A stretch of DNA of 64,000 nt from Candidatus Eisenbacteria bacterium. GTDB lineage: Bacteria; Eisenbacteria; RBG-16-71-46; JAFGJU01. The notes under the pieces are model-generated. The model was given only the letters and a program-made list of their open reading frames with translations. It searched no databases and had not been told where the DNA came from. Positions 24,926 through 51,427 of this stretch are shown here, in pieces. A program made the translations under genes and the position numbers. Location: contig JAPLKG010000011.1 in assembly GCA_026388185.1 (NCBI GenBank), forward strand, positions 310,001 through 374,000, read 5' to 3'. Position 1 is the first letter of the stretch. Every line of letters begins with the position of its first letter.

Positions 24926-25978
24926 ATGACCAGAAAAGAGAAGATCCGGCTCACGACGAGAGTCGCGTGCTCCGGGTGAGCATCCAAGATAGGTCCGGGA
25001 GACCTTGAGAAGCTACTCACCGGGATTCCTAGAAAGTCCCGGAGCAGGAAAGTCCTCGTCGGGCTTGCTGCCCCGGACGACGCTGGAGTGTACCTAATTC
25101 GAAGGAATCTTGCGCTCGTCCACACCGTGGATTTCTTTACGCCTATTGTGGACGACGCCTACGATTTCGGGGCGATTGCCGCCGCTAATGCCTTGAGCGA
25201 CATTTACGCGATGGGCGCGAGACCCCTGAGCGCTCTTTGCATAGTCTGCTTTCCCACGGGCGACATGGACCTGGGAATCCTCAAGCAAATGCTTCGTGGC
25301 GGCATAGACAAGCTCAGAGAAGGAGGGGCCGAGCTGCTCGGAGGGCATTCGGTCAAGGACAAGGAATTGAAGTTCGGATTTGCGGTGACCGGAACGGCGG
25401 ATCCCTCCAGGCTCGTCCTCAAGTCCGGAGCGCGAAGCGGGGACGCGCTGGTGCTCACGAAGCCCCTGGGCACGGGGGTGCTGAGCACGGCGCTCAAGGC
25501 CGGAATGCTGGGCAGGAAGAGAGAGCGAGAGATCACGAAGCAGATGGCCACTCTCAATTGTGAGGCGTCGCGGGTCATGATGAGGGTCGGAGTGAACGCC
25601 TGCACGGATGTGACCGGGTTTGGTCTTCTCGGCCACGCTTGCGAAATGGCGGTGGCAAGCAAGCGCACCTTGAGAATAGACTCCTCCGCCGTACCGTTCA
25701 TGAGTGATGTATTGGGCCTCATAGGGAAGGGTGTGTTTCCAGGTGGGCTTTCCTCCGTCCACAAATTCCTCAAAGGAAAGATGAGGGTCGAGGGAAGAGT
25801 GAGGGACGAGGCGGTTTACGGCATGTGTGATCCTCAGACCTCCGGCGGACTTCTCATGTGCGTGCCCGGAAAAAAGGCCGGTGCGCTCGTGCGTGGAATA
25901 ACGCAAAGCGCGGGTGGACCGGCAGCGGTCATCGGCAGGGTGGTGCCCAGAGAGAAAGTGCCGCTTGTGATATACTAA
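24926..25978 (+). CDS. selD: Selenophosphate synthetase SelD, itself a selenoprotein
   Basis: SelD makes selenophosphate from selenide and ATP, the selenium donor for Sec-tRNA synthesis. From ATG 24926 (GGAG upstream) the frame runs through an in-frame TGA at 24977-24979, codon 18, to TAA at 25978. The segment reads ACSG-TGA-ASKIGPGDLE, exactly the SelD active-site loop in which Cys/Sec is followed three residues later by the catalytic lysine (K21). Downstream the family motifs TVDFFTPIVDDAYDFGAIAAANALSDIYAMG and GGHSVKD are intact to the end, so the TGA is decoded as selenocysteine and not a mutation. A tRNA-Sec gene follows ten bases later. Standard gene callers will start it at 25088 and lose 54 residues. 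Confidence 0.94.
24977..25005 (+). promoter_or_regulatory. Sec UGA codon and candidate bacterial SECIS element
   Basis: After the UGA (24977-24979) a stem AGGTC (24991-24995) pairs with GACCT (25001-25005), with a five-base loop CGGGA. The loop begins 17 bases after the UGA and has a G in its first two positions, as the general bacterial SECIS pattern asks. The stem is short, so this is tentative. Confidence 0.55.
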
Positions 25979-25987
25979 CCGGATTGC

Positions 25988-26085
25988 GGGAGCGGATGAG
26001 TTCTGGTGGACTCCAAGGACTTCAAATCCTTCTGTTGGGCGCTGATAACGTCCGAGGTGGGTTCGATTCCCACACGTTCCCGCCA
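25988..26085 (+). tRNA. selC: tRNA-Sec (TCA)
   Basis: A 98-base tRNA with the features of bacterial selenocysteine tRNA: an 8-bp acceptor (GGGAGCGG with ACGTTCCC, including a G-U and one mismatch at its inner end), a 6-bp D stem GAGTTC/GGACTC with a 4-base loop, anticodon stem AAGGA/TCCTT closing loop CTTCAAA (anticodon TCA), a long variable arm with stem GGGCG/CGTCC, and a 5-bp T stem GTGGG/CCCAC. Discriminator G and CCA are encoded. It lies directly after selD. Confidence 0.95.
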
Positions 26086-50960: not shown

Positions 50961-51386
50961 CCGGTGGAAGCTAGATGGCCGCGGGCCGTCCTGTTTCCCG
51001 GCTTGCCGCGCGGCACAGCCGGGAGAGAGGGTGGTCCGAGGAAAGTCCGGACTCCGTAGGGCAGGGTGCTGGGTAATACCCAGTGGGAGAAATCCCAAGG
51101 AAAGTGCCACAGAAAACGAAACCGCCCGCGACGTTAGCCGCGAGCAAGGGTGAAACGGTGAGGTAAGAGCTCACCAGTGCCCGTGGTGACACGGGCAGCT
51201 AGGTAAACCCCACCTGGAGCAAGGCCAAATAGAAGAGGAGAGGTGGCCCGCCTCGTTATGACTCTCGGGTAGGCTGCTTGAGGCGCGCGGTAACGCGCGT
51301 CCCAGATAAATGGTCATCGCGGCCCGCGGGAGCCGATTCAATCGGCTTGCGTGGGTCGACAGAACCCGGCTTATTGCTTCCTCCGG
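50961..51386 (+). ncRNA. rnpB: RNase P RNA, bacterial class A
   Basis: The catalytic RNA of RNase P, which matures tRNA 5' ends. The universal core GAGGAAAGTCCGGACTCC begins near 51036, and the 3' conserved ACAGAACCCGGCTTAT near 51359. The terminal helix P1 is clear: CCGG-GGAAGC at 50961-50971 pairs with GCTTCC-CCGG at 51376-51386. Further hairpins, such as GCGCGCGGTAACGCGCG near 51283-51300, fit class A. Ends are estimates from P1. Confidence 0.95.
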
Positions 51387-51427
51387 CATACTACGTTTCA
51401 GAGCGATCCGGCGGTGCCGACGCCCTT

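Follow-up and report, generated by a model that had tools for sequence, protein, structure and literature searches.

A predicted selenocysteine-containing SelD encoded directly upstream of tRNA-Sec in a Candidatus Eisenbacteria genome

Introduction

Selenide, water dikinase (SelD) uses selenide and ATP to make selenophosphate, the activated form of selenium that selenocysteine (Sec) decoding requires. In the 64,000-nucleotide stretch of Candidatus Eisenbacteria DNA analysed here (the window), the selD frame itself contains a UGA codon and is followed directly by a gene for tRNA-Sec (selC). The question is how this UGA is read. We consider it nearly certain that the locus is a Sec-SelD gene with selC directly downstream, and that it belongs to a complete bacterial Sec-decoding system. 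The explanation is based on gene content, a conserved UGA, a conserved hairpin and the tRNA.

Results

The selD gene (24926..25978, + strand) runs from ATG to TAA over 351 codons and encodes 350 residues when its single internal stop, the TGA at 24977-24979, is read through. Translated with TGA as U, the product matches the SelD profile TIGR00476 over residues 8-317, spanning the UGA, at 350.2 bits (the curated equivalog cut-off is 125 bits), and AIRS and AIRS_C domains are both present. The UGA (24977..24979, + strand) is codon 18, the catalytic position, and is followed by Ala-Ser-Lys, with Lys21 three residues past it. It aligns with the Cys/Sec of relatives and with the Cys of Aquifex SelD (2yye), within the unbroken block SGCA(S/A)K(I/V)GPGDL. 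The placement of the UGA at the catalytic Cys/Sec of SelD, with the lysine three residues on, had been proposed from the window and is borne out by the profile match and the alignments. The protein thus has both a score over the family cut-off and the catalytic Cys/Sec with the essential Lys; it is about 47-53% identical to most relatives in its class and 67% identical to the nearest. We take the locus to be the gene of a Sec-containing selenophosphate synthetase, with Sec predicted at position 18.

SelD loci were searched in 59 genomes, and most members of the class have a SelD with exactly one internal TGA. Among 33 aligned loci, the window's own included, codon 18 is UGA in 25 and Cys in 8 and never specifies any other residue; the surrounding motif is G[U/C]A(A/S)K. 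The UGA is therefore aligned with Cys/Sec in homologues and the homology downstream of it is intact, which is the pattern of a selenoprotein gene.

A candidate SECIS upper hairpin, AGGUC-CGGGA-GACCU (24991..25005, + strand), has a stem of 5 bp and a 5-nt loop and lies 16 nt after the UGA. Bacterial SECIS elements are modelled as having a loop of 3-9 nt, a stem of at least 4 bp, a distance of 16-37 nt from the UGA, a G at the first or second loop base and an energy of at most -7.5 kcal/mol (PMC13188914). The selD hairpin fits this model at -8.1 kcal/mol; the model alone fits 215 of 798 arbitrary TGAs in the window (27%). The minimum free energy of the selD stretch is no better than that of shuffles, and the free-energy z-score, being not significant, was dropped as proof of a SECIS in favor of a comparison of Sec with Cys forms. 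The hairpin is found in all 25 UGA-SelDs, in one of two registers, and in none of the 8 Cys-SelDs, and a GG in a constant loop position is found in 25/25 and 2/8, respectively. Counting the U of the UGA as 0, bases 14-19 of the UGA-SelDs pair with a downstream strand and the GG is at 20-21. Synonymous recoding of each locus, following that locus's codon usage, gave a mean hairpin z of -1.36 for the 25 Sec forms versus -0.02 for the 8 Cys forms; the window's own hairpin is weak by this measure (z -1.2, p 0.17).

The second register is seen at four loci (L016, L028, L039, and L012), where the 5' strand and the GG at the loop start are unchanged and the 3' strand lies six bases further; the stem of L012 fits both registers. 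Read directly from the sequences, pair 17:31 of the longer-loop register is G-C, U-A or C-G and pair 16:32 is G-C or C-G, variation that we interpret as compensatory changes. RNAalifold gave no useful consensus on the Sec-form set, probably because the stem has two registers and little variation. A SECIS had been suggested downstream of the UGA. Its specificity for the UGA forms and its fit to the bSECIS model, rather than energy alone, argue that it is real; it is by comparing Sec with Cys relatives that this sequence-based assignment is established.

The gene for tRNA-Sec (25988..26085, + strand) was called by ARAGORN with anticodon TCA (UCA in the RNA) and scores 69.5 bits against Rfam RF01852, for which the gathering threshold is 47. 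G73 and CCA are encoded. Nine bases separate it from the selD stop, so the earlier figure of ten differs by a single base. Between them, the + strand showed no terminator-like site, and we infer that selD and the tRNA gene are co-transcribed. A manual count from the coordinates gives 26 class genomes, some with a Cys-SelD among them, in which the two share a contig and are no more than about 160 bases apart.

The acceptor stem of this tRNA has seven pairs and a G8.A66 mismatch, and the T stem has 5 bp. Instead of the thirteen standard acceptor and T-stem pairs that are typical of, although not strictly required for, the 8/5 fold, the length is kept and position 8:66 is G.A. In a set of 34 distinct sequences (L010-L072 and L141-L144, comprising those of the class together with L010 and L011, two close loci from outside it), the 8:66 pair is never standard: it is A.G in 16, G.A in 13, C.A in 4 and A.A in 1, so that the alternating A.G and G.A together make up 29/34. 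The mismatch also occurs in many sequences outside the class, where counts are approximate, some rows of other lineages being in a shifted register. For this reason we rejected the mismatch as a class-specific novelty. Since it is present in 34/34 of the class set and in many others, we regard it as a variant rather than a disqualification. A limited literature search found no description of it, and blastn of the window's tRNA-Sec against E. coli gave no match. In another lineage, six genomes of family f42 (G102, G107, G111, G115, G119, and G123) have two strong tRNA-Sec matches each.

The window's genome is a 20-contig draft of 2.62 Mb that is 97.9% complete. The original prediction, that the organism reads UGA as Sec, was to fail if selA and selB proved absent. 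A profile search of the genome found both above their curated cut-offs: selA at C8:90232-91590 (567.7 bits, cut-off 267.9) and selB at C4:40275-42140 (365.4 bits, cut-off 242.25), the SelB having a beta-barrel and two winged-helix domains. With selC and selD, all four sel genes are therefore in the genome, the gene set that defines the Sec-decoding trait, and the prediction is supported. Selenouridine synthase (TIGR03167) was not found in the genome, and Sec decoding is thus the only SelD-dependent trait seen.

The genome has at least three more UGA-containing genes, making a minimum of four with selD; that such genes should be sought elsewhere in the genome had also been proposed. A family search identified an mvhD/flpD gene with one in-frame TGA (C14:236280-236648; L078:11260-12093) and the read-through CCNW*AYGAADLAG. 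Two hdrA genes came from a codon-usage scan of the window, the stretches around selA and selB, and three FlpD-bearing regions. One (C14:233103-234431, TGA at L078 8263) reads DCSI*ILAPK and the other (C8:135306-137657, minus strand, TGA at L079 12082) reads DCSI*ILGPK, a known Sec site in each case; the latter, with one TGA inside, scores 1197.7 bits against the HdrA2 cut-off of 1100. Table-11 reading halts at the UGA of both hdrA genes and of mvhD/flpD. All three fit the bSECIS model (PMC13188914). The hairpins of the two hdrA genes are GGAUGCC-GGUC-GGCAUCC and GGAUGUC-GGUC-GACAUCC, and one C-G pair of the first is replaced by U-A in the second, a compensatory change. The scan flagged a few other TGAs, the strongest of which in the window (61594) looks by eye like an ordinary gene end. 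NiFe hydrogenase large subunits were found in the genome, without UGA. Formate dehydrogenase alpha, the commonest bacterial selenoprotein, was not found in the genome (TIGR01591).

Three observations lie beside these results. On C14, Hdr-like FAD/FeS proteins, NuoE/F-like subunits and FlpD genes are clustered (L078 651-16129; G000 C14:225650-241128), the Sec-HdrA and Sec-MvhD among them, which suggests electron bifurcation in an anaerobe. A SelD domain without UGA was found in frames of 740-890 aa (G001:C111:18489-19490; also in G012, G021, G026, and G033), which probably represent the NADH-dehydrogenase-like/SelD fusion already known from PMC4561486. The window also holds a bacterial class A RNase P RNA (50962-51389, + strand, 292.8 bits), which carries insertions when compared with the model.

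Discussion

How the parts would work together is drawn from knowledge of the families, as are the biochemistry and the insertion of Sec in vivo. SerRS would charge tRNA-Sec with serine, which SelA would turn into Sec-tRNA using selenophosphate from SelD. SelB would then deliver the Sec-tRNA to those UGA codons that have a marking hairpin immediately after them. SelD would itself be a product of Sec decoding, along with two HdrA proteins and one MvhD/FlpD.

Other readings of the UGA have been weighed against this one. A UGA at codon 18 breaks the frame, as would be expected if it were a nonsense mutation or a sequencing error and selD a pseudogene. However, most SelDs of the class have UGA at the same codon, the remaining frame is open and conserved in the family, and the genome has selA, selB and tRNA-Sec. 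Because the codon is UGA or Cys, and never anything else, across 33 loci, a nonsense mutation cannot explain it; the conservation of the UGA refutes the pseudogene or error reading, which we consider extremely improbable. An in-frame UGA does not by itself name its residue, and in principle it might be read as another amino acid such as Trp or Gly through genome-wide reassignment. Yet the in-gene UGAs that were found coincide with catalytic Cys/Sec sites of families already known as selenoproteins, the corresponding residue in relatives is Cys rather than Trp or Gly, and tRNA-Sec and SelB are present, leaving reassignment a vanishingly small chance.

Translation might instead start downstream of the UGA, at the GTG at 25088, and give a short, non-Sec SelD-like protein. 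The table-11 ORF listing for the region indeed contains only 25088-25978, which is what a gene finder using that table would report, and it is plausible that automatic annotation truncates selD in this way. The product would, however, be without the catalytic Cys/Sec and the Lys that are kept by the family and by all relatives, and we give this start almost no credence. Sec decoding of a full-length SelD remains by far the preferred reading.

A more far-reaching proposal is that the conserved tandem of selD(UGA) and tRNA-Sec is one transcript with built-in feedback, in which a shortage of Sec-tRNA would make ribosomes stop at selD codon 18 and so change the output of SelD and of the downstream tRNA, and that the clade-wide 8:66 purine mismatch reflects selection for a non-canonical pair, not drift. 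We regard this proposal as unlikely. What the Sec-SelD reading does provide is a corrected annotation for selD and at least three other genes (two hdrA and one mvhD), and documentation of Sec decoding across the class, with Sec and Cys forms of SelD both found beside tRNA-Sec. The understanding of Sec decoding is unchanged: this is an ordinary Sec system, useful for annotation and no surprise to the specialist.

The comparison with known systems is in keeping with this. Sec-containing SelD, FrhD/MvhD and HdrA are among the known bacterial selenoproteins (PMC1794560). The window's SelD shares with Sec-containing SelD (TIGR00476) the catalytic Sec, the Lys three residues on and a score far above the cut-off, and shows no difference of substance. 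Its hairpin has the features of the bSECIS model (PMC13188914): the stem is 5 bp long, the loop of 5 nt has a G within its first two bases, the spacing from the UGA is 16 nt and the energy is below -7.5 kcal/mol. It differs in that two registers are seen for the 3' strand of the stem among selD relatives. The tRNA has the UCA anticodon, long variable arm, 6-bp D stem, G73 and CCA of bacterial tRNA-Sec (RF01852). It also has the eight-base acceptor strand and 5-bp T stem of the 8/5 form, but its eighth pair is a G.A mismatch. Forms with the 7/5 fold are known to have only seven acceptor bases (PMC5330540), whereas eight lie between the T stem and G73 here. Since sel genes are reported to lie often near the tRNA-Sec genes of the 7/5 set (PMC5330540), the adjacency of selD and tRNA-Sec is not new in kind. 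Operons of selA-selB-selC are known (PMC1794560), as is the selDABC cluster of Eubacterium acidaminophilum (in the passage of PMC12013277 that cites it). Such clusters have in common with the present locus the placement of machinery genes beside selC, and differ from it in that here selD alone adjoins selC, selA and selB being on other contigs.
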